Source of the DNA: Geobacteraceae bacterium GWC2_55_20
GTDB lineage: Bacteria > Desulfobacterota > Desulfuromonadia > Geobacterales > Pseudopelobacteraceae
Length of the DNA stretch: 32,170 bases
NCBI GenBank assembly: GCA_001802125.1
Contig: MGZK01000019.1
Location: forward strand, 1 to 32,170
Reading direction: 5' to 3'
Shown: positions 6,915 through 22,356 of the stretch, piece after piece
Layout of the letters: each line of letters starts with the position of its first letter
Numbering within the stretch: position 1 is the stretch's first letter
Program-made: the position numbers and the translations under genes
The notes under the pieces: model-generated
Told to the model about the DNA's origin: nothing
Seen by the model: only the letters and a program-made list of their open reading frames with translations
Database searches by the model: none

Positions 6915-6980
6915 AGTGATAGAATATCCCTGTTATCTGGCTCTGTGAATCGTACAAGAAAGCACCTTGCGGCATAGAAT

Positions 6981-7274
6981 CTAATCCGTGACCTGATCCA
7001 AGCTGTAGGTGTTTCTGGTCATTATTCTTATCAAATCTTCCATCCGCTTTAAGTTCCTAATGGCGAAACGGTCTCTTCTCTTCGCAAGTGTTACAAGCTT
7101 CTGAGCGGTGATTTCTGGAGAATGGTCTGGTCTTGGCTGTAACTGTGTCGCAACGAGACAATACAGTGTTGATAGTGCGCCCCTCAATTCCTGAATCTCT
7201 TTTTGTTGTGCTTCAACCTCCATTTTTAAATCAGTGAATATTTCTTCAGAGTTGCCGGTTTCGGTCTTCATCAT
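6981..7274 (-). CDS. Small hypothetical protein with N-terminal coiled coil
   Basis: This is a 97-residue protein. Residues about 10-45 (heptad-like, rich in E, Q and L) look like a short coiled coil, and the C-terminal half is basic. It starts in an ATGA overlap with the 211-residue gene. I do not recognise a family. A scaffold or chaperone role near the terminase is possible only from position. Confidence 0.65.
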   Translation of the reverse strand: MMKTETGNSEEIFTDLKMEVEAQQKEIQELRGALSTLYCLVATQLQPRPDHSPEITAQKLVTLAKRRDRFAIRNLKRMEDLIRIMTRNTYSLDQVTD

Positions 7275-7906: not shown

Positions 7907-8895
7907 TACTCAACACCTCCAAAGGATTCATGCTGCTTTAAATCTTCCTTCAGCTGCTGGACTTCTTTACGGCGTTCTGGGACAAAGTAATCTCGCTGCG
8001 CCTGAGCTGCTGCTATCGCTTCCATGGCTCTCTTTTCGATCTGATCAGGAGTAGGGCAATTTTCTGGCATTTCCTCTTCTGTTACTGCTTTTGACATCTC
8101 AATCTTCAGGACTTCAGGGATAGGCTCCCCCATTATGGTGATCTTGTATGCCGCCTCTCGTGCTGACATATCGTTATCCAGTACAGCCTGAAGAAGTGGT
8201 GCAATGTATTTGGATGGTGCCGGGGTGCTATCGCTGAACATCTTCAGGTACTTTCCCAGAAGCTCAAGGTTTGCCCTTTTGTCAGGCAACTTGATCTTTG
8301 TCACGACGGCCATACAGTCCGAGTCGTCTCCGGTAATTTTATGAAGCGTCTCGATCCCGGCAATTACAGCCGCCTGATCCGGTTCAAGCTCAGATAGTGG
8401 CTTAAGCCTGTTGTCGTCATCGAAGAAATCACGCGGGTCATAAAACGCGAGTTTGGCTATTTCAGCAATCACACGCTCAATGGATATCCCGAGACGGCGG
8501 AAACGGTCTTGCATCAGCTCTTGGATGCGTCTTGAAATGTAATGTTTTGCAAGGCATTTTGAACCCTCATTCCTTGCTGTGCCATAGGATGTGTGTGGAA
8601 ACGCTTTCCGATAAGCCCTTGTAGCGTTCAAAGCCGCGTCACACACATATTCACGACAGAAACGCTCTTCTCTTTCCGTGAGTTCGATTACCTCACGTTT
8701 TACAGAAACGGCCTTTTTTTTGACCGGCCCTTTGACCTTCTTTTTGACACTACTTTTGACAGGCAGTTTTGAAGTATCCACTCGGACATCATCAAGGGTT
8801 TGCGCGATTTTAACAGGTGGCTTTTTTGCCGTCTTTTTGACCGGTTTTTTTGTCACCTTTTTTTTAGGTGTTTTCGGGTTGGTTTCTGTTGCCAT
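7906..8895 (-). CDS. Phage terminase small subunit (Terminase_2 type) with lysine-rich N-terminal tail
   Basis: TerS recognises the pac or cos site and hands the DNA to the large terminase for packaging. Residues about 71-215 show the family pattern: LTEREERFCREY, then AALNATRAYRKAF, then a basic helix, then FYDPRDFFDD. Residues 1-66 are an unusual extension with K-rich repeats (KKVTKKPVKKTAKKPPVK) like histone H1 tails. A C-terminal extension brings the total to 329 residues, against the usual 130-200. AAGGAG stands before the ATG. No large terminase is recognisable in the element, as in satellites that redirect a helper's packaging motor with their own TerS. Confidence 0.85.
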   Translation of the reverse strand: MATETNPKTPKKKVTKKPVKKTAKKPPVKIAQTLDDVRVDTSKLPVKSSVKKKVKGPVKKKAVSVKREVIELTEREERFCREYVCDAALNATRAYRKAFPHTSYGTARNEGSKCLAKHYISRRIQELMQDRFRRLGISIERVIAEIAKLAFYDPRDFFDDDNRLKPLSELEPDQAAVIAGIETLHKITGDDSDCMAVVTKIKLPDKRANLELLGKYLKMFSDSTPAPSKYIAPLLQAVLDNDMSAREAAYKITIMGEPIPEVLKIEMSKAVTEEEMPENCPTPDQIEKRAMEAIAAAQAQRDYFVPERRKEVQQLKEDLKQHESFGGVE

Positions 8896-8940
8896 TTCAT
8901 ACGCTCCTTTTATATTTTTGCTTCTTCAGAAGTCACGGTT

Positions 8941-11900: not shown

Positions 11901-12021
11901 CTGTATTGCCAGCGGTATTGCGTTCAAGACCCTTCAGCAGCGGTAACACTTCAGCACGATCAACCGCCTTATCGTCAATCGACTTCAATAAATCGCCTAT
12001 GGTTTTGTTTTCATCGTTCAT
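8941..12021 (-). CDS. Large phage structural protein with lysozyme/chitosanase-like domain
   Basis: This is a 1026-residue protein. Residues 1-125 are Ser/Thr/Ala-rich linker. Residues about 190-240 hold DKAQAKHDK-type repeats likely to form a coiled coil. Residues about 250-395 are a glycine-rich hydrophobic region that could insert into a membrane. Residues about 478-640 hold a peptidoglycan-hydrolase-like domain starting with ISSGEGDFGGKSYGSFQLSS, a pattern shared with GH46-like chitosanase/lysozyme domains of phage and VgrG-associated proteins; the probable catalytic glutamate is in GEGD. The last 390 residues are Pro/Ala/Val-rich. The layout suggests a tail-associated protein that opens the wall and lines an entry channel, perhaps in place of a tape measure. 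GGAGG lies six bases before the ATG. Confidence 0.75.
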   Translation of the reverse strand: MNDENKTIGDLLKSIDDKAVDRAEVLPLLKGLERNTAGNTGKVIGTAITKAIATKQAGKSTDSTSPSTATAVATSATIPSKNASNAVPSTTTPATSVRDSAGKFHGKDSTSETAPGASDPKDIGMTGALKNLFNKHKDGLKDTAGRMALGPLYDVGVEMKDSAKEARERAGDKSTVTGQVVKKTKGLFGFGKDKAQATHDKAQAKHDKVEAASDKAEAKHDQLQAKADKAKQGAKAGMAAGSTVVNNNDSGGGLLDTASHLLPMLPKKVTGFLSKIPLLGKLFPAAAGAGTVAAEAGGAVAGGAAKAAGGGLLKAVGGKIPLIGGLISGGITLAQGGSASEAVGSGTGATVGAMAGGAIGSVIPGAGTAVGAILGGIAGEWIGKKLGTTFDKQNRSQDDLARADEALQQQGAQQQQGFLASIGSMFSSLPDKLGALKDKTVDAVSGGYQSYKESRAKGGSFFGSLGDAVGSVAKRFESGKGGAGTISSGEGDFGGKSYGSFQLSSKQGSVDKFLNKSGYAQQFQGLQVGSKDFDAKWKETAKNDPNFEKAQTNFAKEKYATPQLAKLQGMGVDTNNRAIQEMAMSTGVQYGEGTNVLESALKGKNTAAMTPADIVNAVQDYKASSVGTRFKNSSGSVQQGVAKRHDGEERQALLSLTGQTVTADGKPVSTAPAAYTAKPGTKEFNDMQAKFVADQQGTAPAVGVAIKKSNAALPVVAAKKQVPKPVEGITPDDKTVAEAKPAVAEPAAAVGIPERRAKKSSEIRAEREAASVASTPVLPAAAVGVVTKKVEPPPTAPDSPVTVAKAVPATTAIVPEVAAPPSEGNPVKTADATPALPVAVTPEASTAVPASVPATAVQVATATQPLNATLPSAPVPAAATGTAQPAKKKTGFFDSLTNAATGFASGFAPKLAKSVSLSDPTATVAGKVQTPVTGTATGATVQAQPETVRLAKRSSQGVQTLSPLPQPQVAQVPLPPPVEVPGLERLAKSQEQQAVKKPDVVASAGLPHIKTEFDDTMLVLMSYDRI

Positions 12022-12079
12022 TCATTGCCTCCGTTGTTGCGCTGCCTGTGCTTGTTTTATAGATTTACTCATTGTGGGG

Positions 12080-12100
12080 GGGTGAGCGAATCGTTCACCC
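12080..12100 (-). other. Hairpin between the tail-tube gene and the lysozyme-like gene
   Basis: A 9-bp stem (GGGTGAGCG/CGTTCACCC with one G-U) closes a three-base loop in the 97-bp gap. On the minus strand C residues rather than T follow it, so it is not a typical terminator. It could be an mRNA processing or stability element. Confidence 0.45.
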
Positions 12101-12118
12101 TTGATCCTCAAACGTCCA

Positions 12119-12679
12119 TTATCCCTGAGATCGGAACTGTTGGAACGTAACAGGAAACTCCGTGAAACCTTCGCCGTCTACTGACATCTGAATATCACCC
12201 ATCTTTTGAGGGTAAACCATCCCCTTCCAAAGCTCTTGTTCACTGGCTCCGTCATCATCCTTGTATGTGTAGATTGTGAGTTTTTGCAGATAGGTGTAGG
12301 GAAGATTAAAAGTCCCGTCGGAATTGCTGACACTTTCAGCCCACGCGACGAACCACTGATAAAGAAGACGATCAGCTGTGTCTCGAACAGTCATAGTGAC
12401 AACAACCGGTTGTGAAGATTTGGGGAATGTGAAGACTGTACCGCCAGCTTCAACCGTATCACCGGAAAGCTCGACCGGCCCGAAACTGACATCTTTAACG
12501 AGGTAATCAAATATGCTGTGGTGTGGGTCGCCTCCACTCGATAGAAAACCTGGCATGTCGGAGAAGGAAACGCGAAACTGCCACGGTTCAGCGAAATGCT
12601 GACGGACAAGCCCGTGTGAAATGAGTTTACGTTTTCTGAAGTCGTCTGCGAGTCCTGAATATGATTTTAAATTTGCCAT
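12119..12679 (-). CDS. Tail tube protein, T4 gp19-like
   Basis: This is a 186-residue protein matching the pattern of T4 gp19-type tube proteins of contractile tails and related injection systems: an aromatic N-terminal region (RQHFAEPWQFRVSF), a central beta region with FPKSSQPVVVTMTVRDTADRLLYQWFVAW, and a C-terminal YVYPQKM-like beta segment ending in FPVTFQQF. Tube proteins stack as hexamer rings. ATG 12679 is chosen because AAGGGG lies about eight bases upstream. Its partner upstream in the operon is another tube-like protein. No sheath gene is found, which is odd for a contractile tail. Confidence 0.65.
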   Translation of the reverse strand: MANLKSYSGLADDFRKRKLISHGLVRQHFAEPWQFRVSFSDMPGFLSSGGDPHHSIFDYLVKDVSFGPVELSGDTVEAGGTVFTFPKSSQPVVVTMTVRDTADRLLYQWFVAWAESVSNSDGTFNLPYTYLQKLTIYTYKDDDGASEQELWKGMVYPQKMGDIQMSVDGEGFTEFPVTFQQFRSQG

Positions 12680-12707
12680 GAACCGCCCCTTTGTTCTGTT
12701 TTGTGAG

Positions 12708-13322
12708 TTACAGCCATGTCCCGGCAAGCGTATCTCTGTTTTGCATGGTCAGCGTCTGGATATCGAGCGTCACTTGCGCCCGGATCAGGTTGCCCGCCTT
12801 GTCCCTCTCTTTGTCAATCGGAGTGGACACCGATTCAATGACGCATCCGGTAAAGATCATTTTACGACCGACATTAATCGTTACGCGATCAGGGATGCGT
12901 CCGCCCAGTTTTAGCCCGTTGACCTGGGGACTTGCAAAGACTTCAAGCCATTGGATAGGCTTCATTACCTGTTCTGCGGCGTTATCTATCGCAAAGAAAT
13001 CAAGAACCAGATTAAACTTTACCGGTGTGTTGCCGTCCCATATCTGCGTTGTCGAAAAAGTACTGATGCTGGTCTTCTGTATGCTCGCCTGGATCACTGC
13101 TGAAACCTTTTCGAATGCGCTCTGGCTGCCTACGTTCGATTGCTCAAGAGGAGCTTCCCACTTAGCGGTGAGGCTTCGGCTACTGCCTTGCCCTATCACG
13201 CCAACCACCATTGCTTCCCCTTGCGATATCCAGCAACAGAGGTGCTCGGAGATACCGAACCTTTCAAAGGGGTTCAACCCGCACACTCCTGATAATTTTA
13301 TTCCCGGCTCTTTATCGGCCAT
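12708..13322 (-). CDS. Tail/injection-system tube-spacer protein (gp53/CIS_tube-like)
   Basis: This is a 204-residue protein. The middle has an alternating beta segment (KFNLVLDFFAID) and a conserved-looking patch (KPIQWLEVFASP). The last 60 residues follow the pattern P-x-x-V...G...F-x-G-x-V-x-S-V...D-x-x-GN-x-IRA-x-V, known from CIS_tube/gp53-like proteins that cap the tube at the baseplate. Such proteins usually carry a LysM domain, which is missing here. It precedes the tail-tube gene by 28 bp. The family call is from pattern memory and is moderate. Confidence 0.55.
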   Translation of the reverse strand: MADKEPGIKLSGVCGLNPFERFGISEHLCCWISQGEAMVVGVIGQGSSRSLTAKWEAPLEQSNVGSQSAFEKVSAVIQASIQKTSISTFSTTQIWDGNTPVKFNLVLDFFAIDNAAEQVMKPIQWLEVFASPQVNGLKLGGRIPDRVTINVGRKMIFTGCVIESVSTPIDKERDKAGNLIRAQVTLDIQTLTMQNRDTLAGTWL

Positions 13323-13354
13323 GGCTTACCCCTCTCTGGATATGTGTTGCAGCT

Positions 13355-13483
13355 TCATATGGCATTGTCAGTCTCCTTTTTTGGTGTTGTCGCTGCCAGC
13401 CTGATTTCACGAATCCCTTTCAGGAGGTACGCTGTGAACTCAGCCGGAATCTTCTCTTTTCGTGGCCGGTATTTCGGTTTCAT
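13355..13483 (-). CDS. Small basic protein (42 residues)
   Basis: ATG 13483 is preceded by a GGGGGG ribosome site and overlaps the stop of the gene before it as ATGA, which supports translation. The product is strongly basic (MKPKYRPRKEKIPAEF at the N-terminus). No family is recognised. A longer frame upstream lies wholly within the preceding gene and is not used. Confidence 0.55.
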   Translation of the reverse strand: MKPKYRPRKEKIPAEFTAYLLKGIREIRLAATTPKKETDNAI

Positions 13484-13848
13484 GCGTTCCCCCCGATTGC
13501 CAAGCCTGATTGTGAGTATTCGCCTCGATGTTCCCATGCGTGAATCATCTGATTGAACGTCTCCCGCGCCACGCTCAGATTCCCTTTGCGGAATGCTGCC
13601 ATGTGTGACCGCCATAATTCGCCCTGGTGGCTCTTGACCCAATCCCAGCAGCCACCGCCTGGGGAACGGTCGCCAAACTCCTTGACCAAGGCGCGAACCT
13701 CTTCAGCGGTATCTGTTTGTTCTGCGAAACCGGCGTCAATTAGCTTCTGGGCCTTGTCGCCTGGAAGGTTCAGCCGTGTCAGGGCTTGAAGAGCTTTCAC
13801 AACTCCCTCCAGACGGACTTCACAGTTTTTGATTATGGTTATGTCCAT
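13480..13848 (-). CDS. Hypothetical 122-residue protein downstream of dnaB
   Basis: This is a soluble protein. The first 60 residues look helical; the middle holds GGGCWDWVKSHQGELWRSHM, rich in tryptophan and histidine. It follows the helicase gene by 12 bp with a GGGGG ribosome site before ATG 13848, so it may help replication. I do not recognise the family. Confidence 0.68.
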   Translation of the reverse strand: MDITIIKNCEVRLEGVVKALQALTRLNLPGDKAQKLIDAGFAEQTDTAEEVRALVKEFGDRSPGGGCWDWVKSHQGELWRSHMAAFRKGNLSVARETFNQMIHAWEHRGEYSQSGLAIGGNA

Positions 13849-13860
13849 TGGTTCCCCCCG

Positions 13861-15240
13861 TTAATCCAGATCGATACAATTGGCGCTGGCTGTATCTGCC
13901 GTAGGCATTGTTTCAAACCGCTGGTATTCGCCCATCCATACCAAAGGGATTGAAAGGTTACGTTCACCATTTCGCTGTTTTTCAATAATCACCTCGGCAA
14001 GCGCCTGATGCTCTATGAGGCTATGGCTACTGTCATTGATACGGTCTTTGCATTTTGCGCAGTATGCTGACGGACGGAAGGGGAAAAGTATCACGTCAGC
14101 ATCCTGCTCTATTTCGCCGGAATCTCGAAGGTCACTCATGTTGGGGCGCTTGTCGGGTCTTGAGTCTACAGCCCGATTCAATTGAGAAAGGAGAACGACA
14201 GCGCAATCCAGATCACGAGCCAGCTGCTTCAGGCCGCGTGAGATTTCACCGATAGCTTGCGTCCTGTTATCTTTCGAGGAAACGCTGATAAGCTGCAAAT
14301 AATCGACAATCAAGACATCCAAGCCTTTCAGCTTTTGCCTACGGGCTTTTGACTTGATCATAGGCAAACTGATCGCCGGGGAATCATCAATGAACAGTTT
14401 GTAGTTTCGGATTGCTGCTGAAGCGCGCTCATTTTTTGCCCACTCCACTTCTGACAGATTCCCGCTCCGGATGTTGCCATACCGGATATTGCCTCGACTT
14501 GCTATCATCCGATCAATGACGCTTCCATTGTCCATTTCGAGACTGAAGACCATGACGCTGTAGCCAGCTTCAGAACTGTTTTCAGCAATGTTGCTGGCAA
14601 AGGCGCTTTTACCCATAGAAGGGCGTCCGGCAATAATAATCAAATCCCCCCGGTGCATTCCATTGGTAGCGGCGTCCAGCATCGACACTCCATAAGGAAT
14701 CCCCTGAATTTTGCCCCTGTTGTCGTAACGAGCCTTAAGGCGACGGGTAGCATCAACAATAAGCGTGGCAGCATCTACAGGCTCGGTTTTTGTCGGAACT
14801 GCCAGCTTTGTAAGAAGGCCCTCAACAAGATCCGTTGCGCCTCCAGTCTCTCTATACCCTATGGCTGTAATCTCGGTTCCTGTCGCAATCAGGCGTCGAT
14901 AAAAGGCTTTCTCCTTCACAATTTGACAGTAGAATGAGATGTTGGCTGCTGTCGGGACATAATCGACCAGCATGAGCAGATAAGGCGCGCCTCCGATTTC
15001 CTCAAGTTCTCCAAGTTTGCGAAGCAAATCACTTGCAGTGATAAAGTCACATGGTTCACGAAGTTCCGAAAGCTGGATCATGGCCTTGAATATTTTACGA
15101 TGACTTTCCCGGTAAAAATCGTCTGTAACGATAATCTCTTGGGCTGTGACAATCGCATTGTTGTCAATGAATACCGCGCCCAGCACTGACATTTCCGCGT
15201 CAATGCTCTGCGGTGGAATTTGATGTGTATCATGCTGCAT
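13861..15240 (-). CDS. dnaB: Replicative DNA helicase, DnaB type
   Basis: This is a 459-residue hexameric 5'-3' helicase. The N-terminal DnaB domain (residues about 7-110) begins with IPPQSIDAEMSVLG. The RecA-like C-terminal domain has Walker A GRPSMGKSA (205-213, lysine 211), Walker B DVLIVDYLQL (aspartate 313) and the SDLRDSGEIEQDAD motif that contacts the neighbouring subunit. A cysteine pair (YCAKCKD) near the C-terminus is not usual in bacterial DnaB. ATG 15240 has GGAGG seven bases upstream and lies inside the end of the initiator gene. With the adjacent initiator it gives the element its own replisome entry. Confidence 0.93.
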   Translation of the reverse strand: MQHDTHQIPPQSIDAEMSVLGAVFIDNNAIVTAQEIIVTDDFYRESHRKIFKAMIQLSELREPCDFITASDLLRKLGELEEIGGAPYLLMLVDYVPTAANISFYCQIVKEKAFYRRLIATGTEITAIGYRETGGATDLVEGLLTKLAVPTKTEPVDAATLIVDATRRLKARYDNRGKIQGIPYGVSMLDAATNGMHRGDLIIIAGRPSMGKSAFASNIAENSSEAGYSVMVFSLEMDNGSVIDRMIASRGNIRYGNIRSGNLSEVEWAKNERASAAIRNYKLFIDDSPAISLPMIKSKARRQKLKGLDVLIVDYLQLISVSSKDNRTQAIGEISRGLKQLARDLDCAVVLLSQLNRAVDSRPDKRPNMSDLRDSGEIEQDADVILFPFRPSAYCAKCKDRINDSSHSLIEHQALAEVIIEKQRNGERNLSIPLVWMGEYQRFETMPTADTASANCIDLD

Positions 15241-16063
15241 TGGATAACCTCCGTTCCAGGACTTGCCGGATACCTGCTGACTGTTCGGCGGTTAGTATTG
15301 GGGTTTCAGGTAATATCGATGCTGACGGCTGCTGGTTCGTTACAGAAAGTGTTTTTGCGCTGAGCTGATCCCATTTCTCGCGTAACTTGGAGCCGGAAAG
15401 AATGTTCACTTTCCAGAAGGTATCTGTTTGGCTCCACCGGATCACATTTTCAATTGTTGCGGGCGGCTGGTTATCAATACGGATGATCTTGTCAATATCT
15501 GTGGCCCATGCCTGAACGCTGCCGTCACGCTTGCCATTATTCACACTCCGATTTTGCGGATTGTTTCCCATGATCATGTCAGCCAATAAATTAGATAGCC
15601 GAATGGCGTCATCTGAAACCGGCTTTTTCGGTTTCGGAGAAGAGGTTTTTATAGGATTAGGATTAGGATATATAGTAGTCACCTGCGATCTCTCCGTTAT
15701 CTCTCCGTTTCCTTTTTGGTATCTCTCCGTTGAACTTTCTAAATATTTAGAATTGATAGCTTTTATCTGTCCGTTTTTTGGTTGGCATCTCTCCGGTATC
15801 TGTATCACTATCTCTCCGCGCTGATTTTGCTTATTTCCGGTGTTTTCGGGGTACTTGACAAGCCATCCAAGGTTATCGAGAAACCGCTTTACCTTACCTT
15901 GTGACCATTGCCACATAGAGGCGTATCCAGCTATCGTGACGGTATTTCCGTTGTCATAGTCCAGTTGCAGGGAAAACCCCGCTTCAAGCTCTGTGTACGG
16001 CCTGCCTGTAGGTAAATACTTGGCAAGGCCCTTTGACAATGGTATCCAGTTCCCCGATTTCAC
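15230..16063 (-). CDS. Replication initiator / helicase-loading protein containing the origin
   Basis: This is a 277-residue protein. Residues 1-95 look like a winged-helix domain (YTELEAGFSLQL, then IAGYASMWQWSQGKVKRFLDNLGWL), as in phage replisome organisers. Residues about 95-150 are a hydrophilic linker. The C-terminal domain ends in SDTFWKVNILSGSKLREKW-like residues, typical of DnaD/DnaT-like helicase loaders. The start is GTG 16063, which shares one base with the stop of the AlpA-like gene. The linker is encoded by DNA holding six iterons, so the gene probably contains its own origin, as lambda O does. The dnaB gene follows immediately. Confidence 0.75.
   Translation of the reverse strand: MKSGNWIPLSKGLAKYLPTGRPYTELEAGFSLQLDYDNGNTVTIAGYASMWQWSQGKVKRFLDNLGWLVKYPENTGNKQNQRGEIVIQIPERCQPKNGQIKAINSKYLESSTERYQKGNGEITERSQVTTIYPNPNPIKTSSPKPKKPVSDDAIRLSNLLADMIMGNNPQNRSVNNGKRDGSVQAWATDIDKIIRIDNQPPATIENVIRWSQTDTFWKVNILSGSKLREKWDQLSAKTLSVTNQQPSASILPETPILTAEQSAGIRQVLERRLSNAA
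15688..15820. repeat. Six 11-bp iterons: probable replication origin
   Basis: Copies of ATCTCTCCGTT, perfect or with one or two changes, start at 15688, 15699, 15721, 15765, 15787 and 15810. Between the third and fourth is an AT-rich stretch (15731-15765) with the palindrome CTAAATATTTAG (15739-15750), a likely DNA-unwinding element. Repeated initiator sites beside an AT-rich region inside an initiator gene are the hallmark of lambda-type and iteron origins. Confidence 0.75.
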
Positions 16064-16350
16064 TAGAGTTCGCCACCAGTAACTTTCATTTCCTCCATGA
16101 TCTTGCGCTTACGGCCACACTTGCTCCCTTTTGCAACACCCTGTACGCTGCCAACTACTACAGTCGGTCGTGACTCAATCCATGCCAGCAGGTCACTCTC
16201 CAACCATGCACACAAACCGCCGCCGTTTTTACTCCCGCCAGTAGTGATATTTCTACGAGCTGGGAACTTGCCCTCTTTTTCCAATTGATATTGCACTGTG
16301 TTTGTCAGGCCGGTCATGTGAAGCATTTCTTTTCTACGTACGAATCTCAT
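16063..16350 (-). CDS. AlpA-like DNA-binding regulator
   Basis: This is a 95-residue protein. The N-terminal 55 residues follow the AlpA/MerR-like pattern (RKEMLHMTGLTNTVQYQLEK, then FPARRNI, then WLESDLLAWIESR). AlpA proteins activate excision or early genes of P4-like elements. The C-terminal tail is basic (GSKCGRKRKIM). AAGGAGG lies before the ATG. It stands directly upstream of the initiator gene, sharing one base with it, and may regulate replication. Confidence 0.75.
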   Translation of the reverse strand: MRFVRRKEMLHMTGLTNTVQYQLEKEGKFPARRNITTGGSKNGGGLCAWLESDLLAWIESRPTVVVGSVQGVAKGSKCGRKRKIMEEMKVTGGEL

Positions 16351-16632
16351 TTACGAATCCCTCCTTTTTTGGCTTGTCCGGTCGCTGCCGTGGCTGTAAT
16401 CAAGTATGAAGACCCCCGCCATTTTCGAGAAGAGTATAAAAGAGGATGAAACAGCATCTTTAGATACGTTCGTTATCATTCTACTTGTATTATTTTGAGT
16501 TACTAAGGCGGGTTTCTCTGATAATTCAGCACGTTCAAGTACTTTTGCTGTCAGCAGGGGGTAGCGGGTAGGATTCAGTGCCTTGACCGAATCCCCCCGC
16601 CTGGCTTTCTCCTTACAACTTGCTGCAAGCAT
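16351..16632 (-). CDS. Hypothetical 93-residue protein
   Basis: The frame ends directly before the AlpA-like ATG. The best start is ATG 16632 with AAGGA about 11 bases upstream, inside the end of the preceding gene. The sequence is mixed and globular-looking (KALNPTRYPLLTAKVLERAE, then FILFSKMAGVFILDY) without a known motif. The unusual 20-bp overlap and weak site keep confidence low; the stretch could also be an untranslated spacer. Confidence 0.42.
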   Translation of the reverse strand: MLAASCKEKARRGDSVKALNPTRYPLLTAKVLERAELSEKPALVTQNNTSRMITNVSKDAVSSSFILFSKMAGVFILDYSHGSDRTSQKRRDS

Positions 16633-16807
16633 CGTGATCGAGTTCCTTGATAATTGCCGAAAGCACATAGTTCGCGGTTATTAGCGGTTCGATATGAGAG
16701 CAGAAATCCATTTCAGCGCATTTCATAGCCTGGAGCTGCTCAGGAAGCTCTGCAATACTTGCCTGAATGCCATTTAAAGCGGCGGTTACCCTATCTATCA
16801 TTGTCAT
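16613..16807 (-). CDS. Small hypothetical protein (64 residues)
   Basis: This is a mainly helical protein with two cysteines (KCAEMDFCSHIEPL). It overlaps the gene before it by 4 bp (ATGA), as do most genes of this early cluster. No family is recognised. Confidence 0.6.
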   Translation of the reverse strand: MTMIDRVTAALNGIQASIAELPEQLQAMKCAEMDFCSHIEPLITANYVLSAIIKELDHDACSKL

Positions 16808-17109
16808 ATTGCACCGCCTTGAACTGGCTTATATTTTATCTCTGTGCCGGTTTGCAAAGCCCAAAGCGCCCAATCTCCGGCCTCTTCACCCATTCTTTCC
16901 GTAAGAGTCGCCAAGCAATTACAAACACATCCGACGCCGGTAATACGGTCATCAAAGCGTTTTTCCAGTCGGTTTTTTATCTCAGGCGGGAGATCATCCA
17001 GAATATCCCTGAATAGATAGACCTGCTCTTCGATGTGATTGAGCGCCCCAGATAACATGGCAAGGTGTTCTTGATGACGCTGGAATACGTGTGCGTTGAC
17101 GGTGATCAT
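16804..17109 (-). CDS. Hypothetical early protein (101 residues)
   Basis: This is a helical protein with a CVCNC cluster near residue 65. The first 50 residues (HQEHLAMLSGALNHIEEQVYLF) look like a helical hairpin. It is joined to its neighbours on both sides by 4-bp overlaps, so all three should be made together. No family is recognised. Confidence 0.65.
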   Translation of the reverse strand: MITVNAHVFQRHQEHLAMLSGALNHIEEQVYLFRDILDDLPPEIKNRLEKRFDDRITGVGCVCNCLATLTERMGEEAGDWALWALQTGTEIKYKPVQGGAI

Positions 17110-17519
17110 ATCGACACCTCCGTCTGGTACCGCAGCGGCGCTTCCCCAGCGACAAGCAACATCTCAAGGAGAGCGATATCTATTTCGCCGTTACCTGTTC
17201 TGTATTGCTCATCGAGTACCTGAATCCGGGCTTCGATAGATGTTATTGACCTTGAGAGCTTAGCCAGTTGCAGCGCTTTTTTGAATATTGCCGGTTGCGT
17301 CTCGTCGTTAAGAATTACGTCAAAATAAGTCTGTGGAACGGCTGTGACCTCTCTATCTTTGCTTATGCAGAGAATGTTTGACATCAGCTGTGCTTCAGTC
17401 CAGCAAAGCAAGCCGTGAAACTGGTCACGGTCAAGAATTGAAATGTCAGCTTTTGCGCCGGATAACTCCAGTTCAGGCGCAAGCTGGGCCGGTGGTACAT
17501 TGATTATGGTCAGGTTCAT
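17106..17519 (-). CDS. Hypothetical early protein (137 residues), translation probably controlled
   Basis: This is a soluble protein without recognised domains. ATG 17519 is chosen because AAAGGAG lies upstream. That GGAG is locked in a 6-bp hairpin (17526-17546), so translation of this gene and the genes coupled to it may be conditional. The gene begins a tight cluster that leads to the AlpA-like regulator, the initiator and dnaB. Confidence 0.65.
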   Translation of the reverse strand: MNLTIINVPPAQLAPELELSGAKADISILDRDQFHGLLCWTEAQLMSNILCISKDREVTAVPQTYFDVILNDETQPAIFKKALQLAKLSRSITSIEARIQVLDEQYRTGNGEIDIALLEMLLVAGEAPLRYQTEVSI

Positions 17520-17525
17520 CGAAAT

Positions 17526-17546
17526 AGCTCCTTTTTTTAGGGAGCT
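17526..17546 (-). promoter_or_regulatory. Hairpin hiding the Shine-Dalgarno sequence of the 137-residue gene
   Basis: On the minus strand AGCTCC pairs with GGAGCT around a 9-base A-rich loop. The second arm contains the GGAG used to start translation at 17519. The other arm abuts the -35 of the opposing small RNA promoter. Confidence 0.55.
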
Positions 17547-17573
17547 TGACAAGAAGGGAAGTTGCAGTATAAT
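17546..17573 (+). promoter_or_regulatory. Consensus sigma70 promoter of the antisense RNA
   Basis: TTGACA (17546-17551) and TATAAT (17568-17573) are both perfect hexamers, separated by 16 bp. It points against the leftward operon. No gene on the plus strand follows, only an intrinsic terminator some 70 bp downstream. Confidence 0.75.
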
Positions 17574-17579
17574 TCCTAT

Positions 17580-17652
17580 CAAGCTCTCTTCATTTGGTCA
17601 TGGTAGAGGTTGTAGCCCTTGAATGGTTCGAGCCATGCAGGGGCTTTTGTTT
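17580..17652 (+). ncRNA. Candidate antisense small RNA (about 70 nt) in the early-operon leader
   Basis: The transcript would begin near 17580 and end after a strong hairpin (17614-17626 with 17633-17645, 12 pairs including one G-U, one mismatch, loop TTCGAG) followed by TTTTGTTT. It is complementary to the operon mRNA between the 31-residue reading frame and the 137-residue gene. Antisense RNAs in such positions set copy number in plasmids and immunity in phage P4 and P1. Here it could limit expression of the replication genes; this is inference. Confidence 0.62.
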
Positions 17653-17746
17653 ATGCACCCATTGACAGAGCAACCGCCCGCCTTGTCGCCGATCTGCGTA
17701 ACTTCCATTTGAAAAACTCCCGGCGTATCGTAGCAATGATCTTCAT
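17651..17746 (-). CDS. Small basic leader peptide (31 residues)
   Basis: ATG 17746 overlaps the stop of the 156-residue gene as ATGA. The product is very basic, with 9 Arg or Lys in the first 23 residues (MKIIATIRREFFKWKLRR). Its stop lies at the terminator end of the antisense RNA. It may be a real micro-protein or serve only to carry ribosomes into the regulated leader. Confidence 0.4.
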   Translation of the reverse strand: MKIIATIRREFFKWKLRRSATRRAVALSMGA

Positions 17747-18213
17747 GATAATTTCACCTCGTACAGATCGTAAGACGCGAACAACATGTCCATTGCGTCC
17801 CACTGGTCGGCAAGGTTGCCAGCTATGGTGTTAATTGTGTGCAAGGCCGTCTCAATAACCTTATCGTCTGTGTAAGGGCACTCCCGCTCGATGGTGCGCT
17901 TGGTCAGAATTAATTCCATTGATGACCTGGTAAGTACTTCTAAAGAGTCTCTGAGTGTGTCGAGGAAATCTTTACCGGCTGGAATGGTGATAAAGTCTTT
18001 GCCTTCTACTGGCCGGTGACTTGCTCCGAGTCCGTTGGCGAATCTTGCTTCAGCAACGGTAGTGATGGCCTGCAATTCATCAAGGGTAATGCTTCCAAGC
18101 TCCTTCCCGGTTGCCGCAATCGCCTCAGACACAAGCTGAGTCATAGTGGGGTGGCAGTGTGCCAAGTAAGTCAGTGTTTCTGCCAATTGTGCCGCGATTC
18201 GTTTTGATTCCAT
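17743..18213 (-). CDS. Hypothetical early protein (156 residues)
   Basis: This is a mainly helical soluble protein without cysteine motifs or membrane segments. AAAGGGA lies upstream of the ATG. It is the last gene before the regulated leader of the operon. No family is recognised. Confidence 0.65.
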   Translation of the reverse strand: MESKRIAAQLAETLTYLAHCHPTMTQLVSEAIAATGKELGSITLDELQAITTVAEARFANGLGASHRPVEGKDFITIPAGKDFLDTLRDSLEVLTRSSMELILTKRTIERECPYTDDKVIETALHTINTIAGNLADQWDAMDMLFASYDLYEVKLS

Positions 18214-18248
18214 GTGAACTATCCCTTTTTCCTTTTGAAGTACCGCCG

Positions 18249-18500
18249 TTAAGCGGCCTGATTTAATCGTTTATGCTGCTGAAGGTTCTGGGCGGCATTT
18301 TCTTCAGGAGTGGCAAGTCGTGCGGCGTTGGGGAAAATCATCGAATGAATATCAAAGAGGATGTCCCGGACACTATCGGTGTCCCCTTCTTCAGAAGCAA
18401 AAATAGCCTCGTTAAGCATTGTGCCGATGTCGGCAAGGTTAACGTCCTGCTTGACTTCAAATCGGTTTGGGTCACTGCCTTTGCTGCCGTCGTTTTTCAT
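18249..18500 (-). CDS. Hypothetical early protein (83 residues)
   Basis: This is an acidic helical protein. ATG 18500 has AAGGAG nine bases upstream; a TTG six bases earlier is too close to that site. Nothing in the sequence points to a function. Confidence 0.62.
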   Translation of the reverse strand: MKNDGSKGSDPNRFEVKQDVNLADIGTMLNEAIFASEEGDTDSVRDILFDIHSMIFPNAARLATPEENAAQNLQQHKRLNQAA

Positions 18501-18537
18501 GCTCAATATCTCCTTTGCTGTACCGCCTGAGCGGGTG

Positions 18538-18732
18538 TTATGCTGAGTGAATTCTGTTGAATACTTCCCTGTACTCTCTGGACAATGACAGCAACTCCCC
18601 CACTGTCATACTGAGAAGCGGTTGATCTCCGTTATCAAGTAACCGCGCCAGCCCCGCCGTAAAGTGGCCGTTACTCCCGGCAATACTGCCGATCTCTTGA
18701 CAGACTTCAATCAACTGCGTTTCTGTTCTCAT
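18538..18732 (-). CDS. Small hypothetical protein (64 residues)
   Basis: It starts in an ATGA overlap with the excisionase-like gene and is therefore translated with it. It is a short helical protein (TQLIEVCQEIGSIAGSNGHF) with no recognised motif. Confidence 0.6.
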   Translation of the reverse strand: MRTETQLIEVCQEIGSIAGSNGHFTAGLARLLDNGDQPLLSMTVGELLSLSREYREVFNRIHSA

Positions 18733-18932
18733 GCTGCAAACCTTGTTTCATTTGTTTCCAAAAACTTGACCAGTTCAGACAGTCTGTACAAAATTTTGCC
18801 CCGTTTCACGCCGACTCTCGAAAAATTAGGGCCAGTTTTATTCATTCTCCATTTGTTAATCGTATTTTCTGTGACGCACAGGAATACCGCCGCTTGCTTT
18901 ACCGTCAGTGCCTTTTCTTCGTTCTCTGACAT
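18729..18932 (-). CDS. Excisionase-like helix-turn-helix protein, first gene of the leftward operon
   Basis: This is a 67-residue HTH_17/MerR-like protein: LTVKQAAVFLCVTENTINKW is the helix-turn-helix, followed by a wing and RLSELVKFLETNE. Proteins of this kind act as excisionases or early activators. AAGGGG lies before the ATG. It is the first gene after the operator region and opposite the repressor, the usual place for a cro or xis function. Confidence 0.75.
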   Translation of the reverse strand: MSENEEKALTVKQAAVFLCVTENTINKWRMNKTGPNFSRVGVKRGKILYRLSELVKFLETNETRFAA

Positions 18933-18967
18933 GCTGTTCCCCTTTCTAGTTCTTTCTAATTTATTGA

Positions 18968-19026
18968 CTAACTATTTATAGTTAGTTAGCATGGCGATTA
19001 TTGAGGTGTCAACTATAAATAGTTAG
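18968..19026. promoter_or_regulatory. Operator pair and early promoter between repressor and leftward operon
   Basis: O1 (18968-18985) reads CTAACTATTTATAGTTAG, with perfect 8-bp arms. O2 (19009-19026) has the same core, AACTATAAATAGTTAG. Their centres are 41 bp apart, about four helical turns. On the minus strand a perfect -35 TTGACA (19012-19007) touches O2, and a weak -10 (TAACTA, 18988-18983) overlaps O1, so bound repressor should block the leftward operon. The repressor's own ribosome site (19025-19030) overlaps O2, which suggests self-control. Confidence 0.75.
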
Positions 19027-19039
19027 GGGGTGTTTTTTT

Positions 19040-19540
19040 GTGGCTGCACAAGGAAGAGGTGGCGGGAGAACTCCTGACAGAGTTGTCGCTTTAATAAAAG
19101 AAGCTGTTGGAAAGTCCAGCCAATCGGCTGTCTCCAGAGAAACTGGATTAACCCAGTCTGCTGTCGGTAGGTATATGCAAGGCGTAGGAGAACCGTCGCA
19201 AGCCACCCTTAAAAAAATGTCTGATTATTTTGGCGAATCAGTTGAATGGTTGCGTGGCGGTAAACGTGCACTGAATGAGGGGTGGTCGGCATCACAAGAC
19301 TGTGAACGTTACCTGAAAACTTTGACGGATTTGATGGAAATTTACGAAATAGTACCGGCCAACCTTAAGGAGACTGTCCAGGATACCATTAGAACGAATC
19401 TTGACGAAGCGGATGACCTGATAAAATTTAACGGTGATAGTTTGAGCCGCGAATTAAAATTTGCCCTTATTGGTCTCATGTGTGAAGTGGAATGCGCAGC
19501 CGATCTCAAAAACTGGAAGAATGAAAGTAAAAACTCCTGA
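19040..19540 (+). CDS. Element repressor, XRE-type helix-turn-helix, no peptidase domain
   Basis: This is a 166-residue protein. Residues about 27-50 (SQSAVSRETGLTQSAVGRYM) are a helix-turn-helix of the XRE/cI type. The C-terminal half is acidic and helical and lacks the Ser-Lys peptidase of LexA/cI repressors, so classic RecA-driven self-cleavage is not expected. Satellite repressors such as Stl of SaPIs also lack it and respond to helper proteins. The start is GTG 19040 with AGGGGG nine bases upstream. It is divergent from the early operon across two operators. Confidence 0.8.
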   Translation: MAAQGRGGGRTPDRVVALIKEAVGKSSQSAVSRETGLTQSAVGRYMQGVGEPSQATLKKMSDYFGESVEWLRGGKRALNEGWSASQDCERYLKTLTDLMEIYEIVPANLKETVQDTIRTNLDEADDLIKFNGDSLSRELKFALIGLMCEVECAADLKNWKNESKNS

Positions 19541-19590
19541 CGGTTGCCTTATAATCTGAATAAAACTGAGTGAAACTAACAGCCGCTAGA

Positions 19591-19911
19591 ATGGATACCC
19601 AAATGAACCACGCGGATACATTGCGGCAAATGGCAGATTTGATTGACGAGAACGAAGCCCAGAGAATCAGGATCAGTGTTCTTGAGTTGGAGCTTCAGCA
19701 GGCAAAGAGCCGTCCGGTTAAGGAAGAAAAGGAATGGTACACGCCGAAAGAAGCCGCTGAGTACATCGGTCGCAGCACATCGTTTCTGGATAAAGACCAC
19801 ATGGAGTCAAACAAAAGCCCGGAGATTCCATTTACCAAACAAGGCAGTAGAACAATCCGGTATCGCAAGAGCGATCTCGATACATGGCTCAGCTCAAAGC
19901 AGAAGGCTTGA
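19591..19911 (+). CDS. Small DNA-binding protein, excisionase-like HTH_17
   Basis: This is a 106-residue protein. An N-terminal coiled coil (residues about 8-40) is followed by WYTPKEAAEYIGRSTSFLDKD, a MerR/HTH_17 helix-turn-helix, and a wing ending in YRKSDLDTWL. It may be an excisionase or a second regulator. No clear ribosome site is visible; ATG 19591 is preferred over the in-frame GTG 19570 and ATG 19603, but this is uncertain. It follows the repressor by 50 bp and may be co-transcribed. Confidence 0.7.
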   Translation: MDTQMNHADTLRQMADLIDENEAQRIRISVLELELQQAKSRPVKEEKEWYTPKEAAEYIGRSTSFLDKDHMESNKSPEIPFTKQGSRTIRYRKSDLDTWLSSKQKA

Positions 19912-20011
19912 ACCCCTTGCAATGGTTAGCGCCAAGTTGTCCGGCCAAGGGTAGCGTTTGAAACGCGACCCAGCCTGTTAAGGGCCACACTCGACAAGAG
20001 GAAACATAAGT

Positions 20012-20551
20012 ATGCAGCGTAATCGGACTCAGAAAATATTTGACACATGGCGGAAGGAAAACCGGCACCGGTTCACCTATCCCATGTACTTGAACGGCAA
20101 TCGGCGGCATGGACGCTACAGATTGAGCTTTGCAGGCATAACTCCGGAAATCCGTCTTCACTTGGTTCCGTCAAACTTTGGAGTCTGGGCATACGTCAAA
20201 ACCGGTAGAAGCGGCGGTGATGGCCTTGTAGAGTTCGATGTACTGGAAGAACGGCACCCGGTCACACGGAAATACTACTGTGGTTTTTGCACGGAACCAA
20301 TCTATTACGACACCCGCAGTGAATTGTGGATCAAGCACAGCTTTGAACCGCTGTTGGAATGGATGAATGAGAACTTCCAACCGGGAAAGTGGCTCTGCCT
20401 GTACGGTACTGATGAATGGATTCACAGTGTTAAAATCTTAAATGAGAGTGAGATGTTGCAGCATAGAGATAATTTGGAAAAGTACGACTTCTATTGTGCC
20501 ATGCCTGTTGTAAAGACGAAAGGTGGGCGGGTGATCGTAAAAAAGCTGTAA
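20012..20551 (+). CDS. Unrecognised 179-residue protein
   Basis: A good AGAGGAAA site stands before ATG 20012. The protein is rich in aromatic and basic residues and holds a CGFC pair near the middle, but no known domain. It lies between the repressor group and the toxin, where satellites and phages often carry accessory or defence genes. The 100 bp upstream hold only a small GCGTT/AACGC hairpin and no clear promoter. Convergent with the small RNA and toxin. Confidence 0.68.
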   Translation: MQRNRTQKIFDTWRKENRHRFTYPMYLNGNRRHGRYRLSFAGITPEIRLHLVPSNFGVWAYVKTGRSGGDGLVEFDVLEERHPVTRKYYCGFCTEPIYYDTRSELWIKHSFEPLLEWMNENFQPGKWLCLYGTDEWIHSVKILNESEMLQHRDNLEKYDFYCAMPVVKTKGGRVIVKKL

Positions 20552-20552
20552 G

Positions 20553-20672
20553 TAAAACAAAAGCCCCATGCAAAAAGCATGAGGCCTAATTCAAGTCCCC
20601 CGACTGCTTGTAATCGCGGTGCCGAGGGGCTGCTACCTTGCGGTAGTCTCACAAGCCCGATTGATCGGGAAC
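20553..20672 (-). ncRNA. Candidate pseudoknotted small RNA (about 120 nt) behind the toxin gene
   Basis: The transcript would begin near 20672 and end at an intrinsic terminator (stem 20563-20585 with a 5-base loop, then TTTTGTTTT). In RNA order it has a hairpin at 20669-20656, a 5-bp hairpin with a GCAA tetraloop (20646-20633), and two crossing pairings: GCTTGT/ACAAGC (20656-20651 with 20611-20606) and AGCCCC/GGGGACT (20631-20626 with 20600-20594). Crossing stems make an H-type pseudoknot. No open reading frame explains the region. It might be a toxin regulator, a phage C4-like antisense RNA or a new class. Confidence 0.7.
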
Positions 20673-20678
20673 AATTAC

Positions 20679-20707
20679 ATTCTAGTTTACGGTAATATCT
20701 TTGTCAA
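20679..20707 (-). promoter_or_regulatory. Strong sigma70 promoter of the pseudoknotted RNA, inside the toxin 3' end
   Basis: On the minus strand a perfect -35 TTGACA (20707-20702) and a -10 TAGAAT (20684-20679, one change from consensus) are 17 bp apart. The -35 lies within the last codons of the toxin gene and the -10 just after its stop. This separates the RNA from the toxin as its own transcription unit. Confidence 0.75.
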
Positions 20708-21112
20708 CTGCTGAAATCCCAGAGCATGAAGTGCACTGCGCTGGATAGCTTTGAAATCCTCATCTGAAACAGTTTGTGACGAATAAAGGCGCTTTCCTTT
20801 TACATCTTTTCCCATTTTCACCCTGTCCAGTCGATCAAGTGAGACAGTGGCAAGCATGTCGCACTTGGCCCATGTCGGTTTTGCAGATAATGGCCCTGGC
20901 AATGACGCCGGATCAAGACGGTGATGACACCCTTCAACCGGAACGGGCGGTGTTGTGGAGAGCGGCACTACAATACAAAGCTGTGTTTTGCGACGGGGGC
21001 GGGGTGAGATGACAACGACCGGGCGGCGCTTGACCATTTCAGGCGGCTTAAATCCTGTAGTGAAATCACATATGAGTACTGTTCCGGGGTTTGGGTGAAA
21101 CGTAAGCGGCAT
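20687..21112 (-). CDS. Solitary PemK/MazF-family toxin-like protein
   Basis: This is a 141-residue protein with the MazF/Kid pattern: GTVLICDF near the N-terminus, KRRPVVVIS (arginine near 30), VVPLSTTPP (Ser/Thr near 52), then WAKCDMLATVSLDRL. MazF proteins are mRNA-cutting ribonucleases in type II toxin-antitoxin systems. No MazE-like antitoxin frame lies on either side: upstream is the integrase, 65 bp away, and downstream a small RNA. ATG 21112 has GAGG upstream; a longer frame exists but lacks a site. The fold is shared with ToxN, whose antitoxin is a pseudoknotted RNA, so the neighbouring RNA is a notable partner candidate. Confidence 0.78.
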   Translation of the reverse strand: MPLTFHPNPGTVLICDFTTGFKPPEMVKRRPVVVISPRPRRKTQLCIVVPLSTTPPVPVEGCHHRLDPASLPGPLSAKPTWAKCDMLATVSLDRLDRVKMGKDVKGKRLYSSQTVSDEDFKAIQRSALHALGFQQLTKILP

Positions 21113-21177
21113 GGCAACCTCTATTAAAATCACGATGGAATTGAAAGTATCGGAACATTTCAGGAACATCAAGGGTA

Positions 21178-22356
21178 TTATTCGGCTACGGTCGCCTGTT
21201 CTACCCCTGCCATGCGTAACAGCTCTGCCGTGATAATCTCTGTGAATGGCCGTAATTCTTCCGGTGAGGGTATCGTATAGTTCTTGTCTGTGACTGATCC
21301 AGTGGGAATATGTGAAGTGAGGATATCAACAACGAAGCCAGGGCATAACAGCTTAGCAGTGGTAGTGAAGCGCTTACGCAGCATGTGAGGATATACCTTG
21401 ACGCCTTGCGCCACGAGCTGCCGATCAAAGTTTGATGTATTGGTTACATGCCCTGTACGGCTCTGTGTAGGGAATACCCATGCTGAACCTTGTGTTTGTT
21501 CTTTGCGGCGCTTCAGTAGCTCGACCACAAAGCCAGATAGCGGAATATACAGAGACTCGCCATTCTTCGTCTTTGCCACGAAGAGTGTTTTCTTTTCAAG
21601 GTCAATATCTTTCCATTGCAATTCAGCGCCGTTTGATTTCCGCATACCAGTGAATAGCAACAGTTTGTAGTAATCAGCACCGACGTTGCCCTTCAATGCG
21701 CCCAGGGCAGCATAAAAGGCGGGCATGGTTTCGGGAGCAACATTAACGCGGCGGGGCGGTTCTGGGTTCCACTTGATGCCGATAACCGGATTGATAGCAG
21801 GGCGCTTTAGTTCTTTCATGGAATATGATATTAAATAACTGAGCAGGCCGATTGCTCTGTTGGCTGCATAGGGCGCGGTTTTTGATATTTCCTTGAAACG
21901 CGTTTCTGCCATATCGGCGGTAATATCTTCGACACGTTTGTTCCACCAATCTTTGAAATGATTGAAATTGTACCCGTAGCTTCGTCTTGAAACTGCGTTC
22001 ATTGTCGAGGCGGCAAGGTAACTTTCAAAGACAGCAGACAGTATGCCGCGTTTATCTGAATTCTCGATTGTACGGCGTTTCTTGTCCAGGTTCGGATTGA
22101 CGCCTTTGCGAAGAGTGTCGAGGGCCTTGTGCAGTTCATCTCTTGCTTTCAACACTGAGACTTCAGGGAAGGTTCCAAGGCAGACGCGAATCAAGCGCCC
22201 GTGGACGCGCTTTTTGACAAAGAAGGTCTTTCTCCCTCCAGGCGATACCCTGACACCGAAAAGTTTGTCTTTTTCGTCGAAGTATTCAACCTGCTTGCCG
22301 GGAGTTGGTTCAAGGTCTTTGATACGGCGCTCTGTAAACCCGAATCGATCTGTCAT
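21178..22356 (-). CDS. int: P4-type tyrosine integrase
   Basis: This is a 392-residue site-specific recombinase. Residues 1-90 are the arm-binding domain (DUF4102-like, LFGVRVSPGGRKTFFVKKR). Residues about 105-190 are the core-binding domain, followed by the catalytic domain. The visible catalytic residues are R239 (FTGMRKSNGAEL), the lysine in AKTKNGES (262 or 264), H324 and R327 (HMLR), H349 and the nucleophile Y360 (DKNYTIP). The gene lies just inside the right end. An inverted AGGTAACT copy overlaps its ribosome site, so binding of integrase could shut off its own translation or transcription. It fits insertion into the 3' end of the small CxxC gene. Confidence 0.93.
   Translation of the reverse strand: MTDRFGFTERRIKDLEPTPGKQVEYFDEKDKLFGVRVSPGGRKTFFVKKRVHGRLIRVCLGTFPEVSVLKARDELHKALDTLRKGVNPNLDKKRRTIENSDKRGILSAVFESYLAASTMNAVSRRSYGYNFNHFKDWWNKRVEDITADMAETRFKEISKTAPYAANRAIGLLSYLISYSMKELKRPAINPVIGIKWNPEPPRRVNVAPETMPAFYAALGALKGNVGADYYKLLLFTGMRKSNGAELQWKDIDLEKKTLFVAKTKNGESLYIPLSGFVVELLKRRKEQTQGSAWVFPTQSRTGHVTNTSNFDRQLVAQGVKVYPHMLRKRFTTTAKLLCPGFVVDILTSHIPTGSVTDKNYTIPSPEELRPFTEIITAELLRMAGVEQATVAE

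Follow-up and report, generated by a model that had tools for sequence, protein, structure and literature searches.

A gap of 131 bp in the early operon of a prophage from Geobacteraceae bacterium GWC2_55_20 contains a perfect consensus promoter that points against the operon, and the question is what an RNA started there could do to the genes that follow. The prophage lies within the window, that is, the whole stretch of 32,170 nucleotides that was analysed, which is one complete contig (C19) of the 4.55-Mb genome. An earlier note had taken the site for the leader of the operon and had proposed that it works as an antisense switch. The main parts of that observation stand and the antisense switch is kept as the interpretation, while the leader setting, the location given to a 31-residue frame and the likeness drawn to CopA/RNAI and to the P4 and P1 immunity RNAs have to be given up.

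On the minus strand, the prophage runs from a tyrosine integrase gene through the early operon to tail and terminase-small-subunit genes. The operon has the order HTH_17, g2, g3, g4, g5, gap, g6, g7, g8, a possible g8b, AlpA-like regulator, initiator and DnaB, with start/stop overlaps between several neighbouring genes, and the gap between g5 and g6 spans 17520-17650. The surrounding features are the following.

21178-22356, minus strand: tyrosine integrase, from profile matches
19040-19540, plus strand: CI-like repressor gene, opposite the early operon across the control region
18968-18985 and 19009-19026: operator-like repeats CTAACTATTTATAGTTAG, in the control region that separates the CI-like gene from the early operon
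18729-18932, minus strand: HTH_17 protein gene, upstream of g2
17743-18213, minus strand: g4, an early protein of 156 amino acids with no assigned role
17651-17746, minus strand: g5, a basic peptide of 31 amino acids, whose ATG overlaps the g4 stop
17106-17519, minus strand: g6, 137 amino acids, family not recognised, the first gene under the proposed switch
16804-17109, minus strand: g7, no assigned role, start overlapping the g6 stop
16613-16807, minus strand: g8, no assigned role, start overlapping the g7 stop
16351-16632, minus strand: possible gene g8b, from sequence reading only, start within the end of g8 and stop adjoining the AlpA-like start
16063-16350, minus strand: AlpA-like regulator (PF05930, E 6e-8; phrog_2790)
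15230-16063, minus strand: initiator or helicase loader, O- or DnaD-like (phrog_2514, E 4e-23; phrog_391)
13861-15240, minus strand: DnaB-type replicative helicase (PF03796, E 3e-88)

The repeat at 18968-18985 is an 18-bp near-palindrome, and the operator-like pattern has 3 matches compared to 0.02 expected. The CI-like protein presumably binds these repeats (18968-19026), and the early operon likely starts in the control region beside the CI-like gene. The gap itself is intercistronic, standing behind five early genes of the same strand (HTH_17 and g2 to g5), and is not the leader that the earlier note had seen in it. The 31-residue frame that was placed inside the same 130 bp is g5, at 17651-17746, which adjoins the gap. 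The AlpA-like regulator, the initiator and dnaB do lie downstream as had been stated, according to the matches to PF05930, phrog_2514 and PF03796. Both g7 and the AlpA-like gene carry Shine-Dalgarno-like sequences of their own.

For g6, we prefer the ATG at 17519, preceded at 8 nt by a GGAG, over an in-frame TTG at 17582, which would lengthen the protein to 158 amino acids and place all three of the mRNA segments described below within coding sequence. The family search with g6 gave none, the best hit being phrog_7185 with an E of only 0.04, and its predicted structure has a mean pLDDT of 39, which makes it unusable.

As to the rest of the prophage, 26 of its proteins (window 5239-22356) were scanned. 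Tail-tube, PmgG-like and other tail families were found together with the terminase small subunit, and one protein of 1026 amino acids has a VgrG3-like domain. A large terminase, a portal and a capsid protein were not recognised in this set of 26, which suggests that the prophage is a satellite or remnant.

We now turn to the plus strand of the gap, where three features are of concern.

17546-17573, plus strand: promoter TTGACA-16-TATAAT, against the early operon, matching the consensus at 12/12 positions
about 17580-17652, plus strand: predicted antisense RNA of ca 70 nt with two stem-loops, start and end inferred
17614-17652, plus strand: intrinsic terminator, a 13-pair hairpin (17614-17645) with one mismatch, followed by TTTGTTT

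The perfect promoter opposing the operon is thus present as described in the earlier note. It is the window's sole perfect site at spacers of 15-19, where chance would give 0.009 per window and 4e-5 per 131 bp, and the sole 12/12 match among the 9 promoter-like sites in 13500-20600. Such sites are not enriched in this region (9 vs 8.3 in shuffles), and neither are terminator-like sites (6 vs 7.0), so that the weight rests on the perfect match and on the joint arrangement of the elements. In the whole genome, there are 3 perfect sites with spacers of 16-18 and none of the reversed control pattern, compared to ca 1.3 expected from base composition (scaled from the window estimate); each of the other two is in a gap and precedes a co-oriented ORF by about 45-50 bp. 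We have also counted units in which a promoter of 10/12 or better is followed by a terminator no more than 160 nt away. There are six such units in 152 kb, made up of the window and ten related loci (11 of the 55 sequences), and only the unit of 17546-17573 is 12/12; nothing comparable was found in the related prophage stretch L045. Operator-like repeats were seen only at the main control region and none near the antisense promoter, which is apparently independent of the CI-type repressor, and the antisense RNA should for this reason persist in the lysogen.

The start of the RNA was placed 6-8 nt past the -10 box and its end was taken from the hairpin and T-rich tail, which gives the 70-nt RNA with a terminator hairpin (about 17580-17650) that had been proposed before. 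It is predicted to form a 5′ hairpin with the loop UUGGUC, followed by the 3′ terminator hairpin, and the fold from about 17580 has an energy of -27.3 kcal mol−1 (z -3.2). The terminator segment has a z of -4.06, reached by 1 of 1000 shuffles; a simple terminator scanner scored just the 5-pair core at 17614-17645. The folding of the whole antisense stretch has no plus-strand bias (z -3.06 on the plus and -3.36 on the minus strand), and the segment of the 5′ hairpin is weaker on the plus strand (-1.50 vs -2.82). The terminator runs into the g5 stop codon (17651-17653), which is as far as the RNA reaches; the earlier statement that no protein gene is opposed therefore holds, the part about a leader does not.

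Rfam includes models of both ctRNA and c4. Its covariance models gave no match over 17520-17652, either with the whole window at the gathering threshold or with 17480-20760 at E up to 10, and a tRNA or a known Rfam RNA at this place was thus rejected. The longest exact match of the predicted RNA to the rest of the window is 12 nt, within a terminator. The possibility that it is a copy of the RNA at 20556 was also discarded, the common part being this 12-nt terminator end only.

On the mRNA strand of the same gap, folding points to three segments that can pair in two ways.

17573-17586, minus strand: segment 1, the pre-emptor arm of the 14-bp ON stem
17542-17555, minus strand: segment 2, partner of segment 1 (ON) or, via 17541-17546, of the Shine-Dalgarno sequence (OFF)
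17526-17531, minus strand: segment 3, GGAGCU, which holds the g6 Shine-Dalgarno GGAG (17528-17531), 8 nt before the ATG

The whole gap folds with a z of -3.87 on this strand, which none of 1000 shuffles reached. For the segment of the 14-bp stem the value is -4.49, compared to -2.65 on the other strand, and where the palindrome is imperfect, at two positions, the mRNA strand has G-U pairs and the other strand has mismatches. In 400 mononucleotide shuffles, the longest stem was at most 12 bp. The GGAG of g6 is able to pair with 17541-17546 in a 6-bp hairpin. That a hairpin hides the GGAG, as had been claimed, is thus possible, but the favoured fold from the g5 stop onwards is the 14-bp stem, which spares it; the hiding hairpin arises once this stem is prevented. 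The 5′ half of segment 1 is complementary to the first nucleotides of the predicted antisense RNA. The case for a switch is therefore stronger than the earlier note had argued, since the 5′ arm of the pre-emptor stem is the very segment that the 5′ end of the RNA would cover.

To imitate bound antisense RNA, pairs at 17580-17650 were forbidden in the calculation. The probability of the 14-bp stem then falls from 0.89 to 0.05 and that of the Shine-Dalgarno hairpin rises from 0.09 to 0.94. An equally large switch was found in 3 of 500 shuffles in which the Shine-Dalgarno sequence and the start were kept, and at 2 of 246 ORF starts, one of which is g6 itself; among the 94 ORF starts with a Shine-Dalgarno-like word there is 1. 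The ORF starts in this control (ATG, at least 100 amino acids, six frames, window plus twelve loci) are not all real genes. The elements are thus in place, their structure is non-random, and in computation they switch.

The bound form is OFF in all 40 folding windows (Shine-Dalgarno hairpin 0.92-0.94), and the free form is ON in all 24 that start after the g5 stop, with 17650 as the earliest starting point in the transcript. Once untranslated g5 is added, however, the free form is ON in only 3 of 16 windows, and in the other 13 the Shine-Dalgarno hairpin forms with no antisense RNA. The model thus requires, or predicts, ribosomes on g5. Even in the 24 ON windows the Shine-Dalgarno sequence is only partly open (0.10-0.57), and equilibrium folding takes no account of the order of folding during transcription, which is expected to matter for a switch of this kind. 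Two other options considered were attenuation by a leader peptide, with ribosomes stalling in g5, and transcription attenuation. The former was rejected because 64 nt separate the end of g5 from segment 1 (the folding windows nevertheless predict that translation of g5 matters), and the latter because a U-run is absent.

The best reading of these results is control by an antisense RNA, on an mRNA that has a competing pre-emptor stem. We give a probability of roughly 0.5 to a cis-encoded RNA of ca 70 nt in the g5-g6 gap that restricts the translation of g6 and, through polarity, the following genes. In its absence, the stem of segments 1 and 2 would hold segment 2 off the Shine-Dalgarno sequence and g6 would be translated. 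The RNA would pair with the emerging mRNA and cover the 5′ half of segment 1, upon which the freed segment 2 would close on segment 3 and block the entry of ribosomes to g6. Since no U-run follows this second hairpin, the block should be translational and not an attenuation of transcription. Downstream genes would then be reduced through polarity from the untranslated g6; this step is needed given the separate Shine-Dalgarno-like sequences of g7 and of the AlpA-like gene. That the RNA is transcribed and pairs in vivo, that polarity extends to the initiator and DnaB, and what purpose this serves, we infer. With the initiator, DnaB and other early genes downstream, the net effect would be that expression of the replication genes is capped in proportion to copy number, and leaky or superinfecting early transcripts would be silenced as well.

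A more far-reaching proposal, which we put forward tentatively and with more doubt than belief, is that the phage has a plasmid-type pre-emptor switch, in which a repressor-independent RNA of the lysogen gives copy control of the excised element and immunity to superinfection, with translation of g5 as a second input that keeps the switch ON. If true, RNA-based copy control and immunity would be layered on a CI-type repressor, and the antisense and pre-emptor logic of plasmids (repABC, pT181, pSK41) would have been carried, in translational form, into the early operon of a temperate phage. It would be a concrete and testable case of control at the RNA level on top of such a repressor, and one in which a gap of 130 bp can be read for function from a single sequence. 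In the open-licence literature (titles and abstract openings), no phage antisense RNA acting via a competing stem was found among the matches listed, and the matches listed for Geobacter make no mention of such RNA-level control.

The parallels are closer to RepE of repABC plasmids and to pSK41 and pT181 than to the CopA/RNAI and P4/P1 systems that had been suggested. The RepE/ctRNA (inc-alpha, incA; p42d, pTiR10) is described as an antisense RNA of ca 50 nt from the intercistronic gap of the operon, without which a large stem-loop keeps the repC Shine-Dalgarno sequence single-stranded and with which the region refolds (PMC3155836, PMC6090056). At the level of sequence, our locus likewise has an antisense unit, with its promoter and terminator, between two genes of a replication operon. 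It also has, in silico, two mutually exclusive mRNA folds, of which the antisense RNA brings about the blocking one, a likeness that is not robust if g5 is untranslated. There are, however, differences. One of the refolded hairpins in repABC is an intrinsic terminator, whereas here the U-run is absent after 17526-17531. The next gene there is the initiator gene repC, with the partition genes (repA/repB) upstream, whereas here it is g6, with no assigned role, and the initiator gene begins 1.46 kb beyond the g6 start. No repABC genes were found by family search of ten early proteins (g8b left out).

RNAI of pSK41 is reported to be an antisense RNA of ca 83 nt with two stem-loops, complementary to a region ca 100 nt upstream of the initiation region, whose binding leads to the ribosome-binding site being sequestered in a hairpin, while transcription is not attenuated (PMC5703833). 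For pT181, the same source describes an RNAI of 87 nt and a pre-emptor that competes with stem-loop IV next to the start (PMC5703833). The sequestration of a ribosome-binding site induced by antisense RNA, with no terminator, is common to pSK41 and, in silico, to the gap. The RNA of pSK41 and pT181, however, sits in the leader of a plasmid rep gene and not in an intercistronic gap of a phage. No RepA_N or Rep_trans initiator was found among the early proteins scanned, and a relation in sequence to pSK41 or pT181 is not seen.

Among phage RNAs, sar is located in the arc-ant gap of P22, and the CI RNA of P4 is an immunity RNA that likewise works near a ribosome-binding site; both c4 and P4 CI RNA are encoded on the strand that also carries their target. 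In our case the promoter is on the plus and the operon on the minus strand, which makes the RNA divergent from the operon and fully complementary to its mRNA, unlike c4 and P4 CI. The gap RNA (17580-17652) starts ca 50 nt upstream of the Shine-Dalgarno sequence (17528-17531) and, unlike sar, has to act by refolding; the complementarity to the ribosome-binding site, which is a feature of sar, is lacking. As described, sar is a small antisense RNA that pairs with the ant mRNA and interferes directly with translation initiation, and c4 of P1 and P7 is an immunity RNA working near the ribosome-binding site (PMC12197685). OOP of lambda, an antisense RNA of 77 nt, has a promoter and a terminator of its own and runs against the early operon immediately ahead of the replication genes (PMC5415839, PMC5869508), and in this respect the gap unit resembles it. 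OOP, however, overlaps the 3′ end of cII and reportedly acts through RNase III, whereas here the overlap is the g5 stop codon only and a Shine-Dalgarno switch is predicted. In the available parts of the sources, none of OOP, sar, aQ and c4 is described as using a competing stem (PMC12197685, PMC5415839, PMC5869508). By these features, the gap RNA is not a repABC ctRNA, pSK41 RNAI, OOP, sar or c4 RNA, and in its computed mode of action it works like the first two.

The resemblance to OOP leads to an explanation in which the antisense RNA is real and there is no switch, the duplex in the gap recruiting RNase III or convergent transcription lowering the early mRNA. The same promoter and terminator would suffice, refolding of the Shine-Dalgarno sequence would not be needed, and action through RNase III is what has been reported for OOP, which likewise lies right before replication genes (PMC5869508, PMC12197685, PMC5415839). 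We regard this as unlikely, as it leaves the 14-bp stem, the bias toward the mRNA strand and the rarity of the switch in shuffles unexplained. The 14-bp palindrome could instead serve as an operator at the DNA level, controlling the antisense promoter, with the RNA switch incidental. Its arms flank the -35 and -10 boxes, ca three helical turns apart, and 12 of the 14 positions are palindromic. However, both mismatches become G-U pairs only on the mRNA strand, the bias in folding is on that strand, and the palindrome is unlike the operator-like repeats of the main control region, all of which makes an operator very unlikely.

The RNA could also be a trans-acting small RNA of the prophage with targets in the host or in other phages, its complementarity to the gap being a by-product of its location. 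As a free-standing unit of promoter, RNA and terminator, with no recognised ORF, it is similar to the prophage small RNAs described in PMC12197685. The longest exact match elsewhere within the window is, however, the 12 nt in a terminator, and we find this option quite unlikely. The least probable explanation, to which we give very little credence, is chance, that is, a consensus promoter and hairpins with no function. It agrees with the counts of promoter- and terminator-like sites, which equal those in shuffles, with three perfect promoters in the genome being near the chance level, and with the fact that conservation of the gap was not seen in the collections searched. What chance does not easily give is a 12/12 promoter combined with a terminator that ends in the g5 stop codon and with a three-segment switch reached by 3 of 500 shuffles.

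The DNA of the gap and its flanks (17060-18220) had no match in phages and plasmids, and the gap found only itself in its own genome. In the 141 genomes of the order, 34 other genomes have matches of 18-53 bases (E up to 0.1), none of which spans the gap, and they are judged to be chance. The search with g6 covered 147 relatives, phages, viral contigs, one-per-species genomes and 277 genomes of the class, and yielded only g6 itself and the identical UViG record 2721755253, which is probably the same genome. A match of 18 residues in L004 (61%, E 7e-5) was read as chance after the L004 ORFs had been viewed. In viral contigs, g4, the initiator, the AlpA-like protein, g2 and g7 were found in UViG 2721755253 only. 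Relatives of the initiator are present in 7 other genomes of 76, of g4 in 2 others of 141, and of g2 in 3 others of 141 and in 4 loci in a further search of genome contigs. The loci with relatives of the initiator, g4 or g2 are prophages or fragments whose early genes are ordered differently, and none contains a copy of the gap; what related prophages have in common with this one is g2, g4, g5 or the repressor. The absence of relatives of the gap is neither support nor refutation, and it caps the confidence.

A homologue of g5, with 35 amino acids, is found in the related prophage L037 (1983-2090; 53.6% over 28 residues, E 0.002 / 5e-4), and its start likewise overlaps the stop of the preceding gene. 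This means that g5 is probably a real gene and not a leader peptide peculiar to the gap. The two prophages, which have different neighbours around it, define a family of basic peptides of 31-35 amino acids with the motif K-x-[KR]-LRRSATR-x-AV. As a separate observation, a g2 homologue (82% over 62 residues) is encoded on CAJAJL010000063.1 (L073/L076), a contig of 11,240 bp labelled as a Chlorobiaceae MAG. A direct repeat of 141 bp at both of its ends suggests a circular or terminally redundant element.

Two further loci of the window can be mentioned here. At 3021-4187, on the minus strand, a predicted lipoprotein of 388 amino acids has a long collagen-like glycine-x-threonine repeat and a lipobox assigned by eye. 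At 28204-28835, on the plus strand and probably just outside the prophage, two small proteins that resemble each other are encoded in tandem; each has three CxxCH motifs, as seen in periplasmic multihaem cytochromes.

Finally, a second candidate RNA is found next to the integrase gene.

20687-21115, minus strand: PemK/MazF-type toxin gene (PF02452, E 6e-13), adjoining the integrase
20553-20683, minus strand: conserved structured RNA directly downstream of the PemK-like gene, with a terminator and, at 20707, a promoter matching at 11/12 positions

Beside the PemK-like gene, no antitoxin gene could be recognised within the window, and Rfam gave no match to the RNA, either in the window or at 4 of the other loci. 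Its structure was derived from 10 copies, that is, 10 of 14 matches, L063, L065, L068 and L069 having been dropped as partial or badly cut. It has 32 pairs, 9 of them with two-sided changes, and its covariation score was reached by none of 500 shuffles. The resulting model gives 18 matches of at least 38 bits, counting the 10 source copies, in 17 of the 277 genomes of the class; weaker matches resemble terminators. At 11 of the 17 loci, a PemK homologue (48-87% identity outside the window) lies in front of the RNA in the same orientation; none was found at the other 6, where 2-3 kb were examined in each. The RNA could be an RNA antitoxin with its toxin, or part of another RNA-controlled toxin module, and this module is possibly more novel than the antisense switch.
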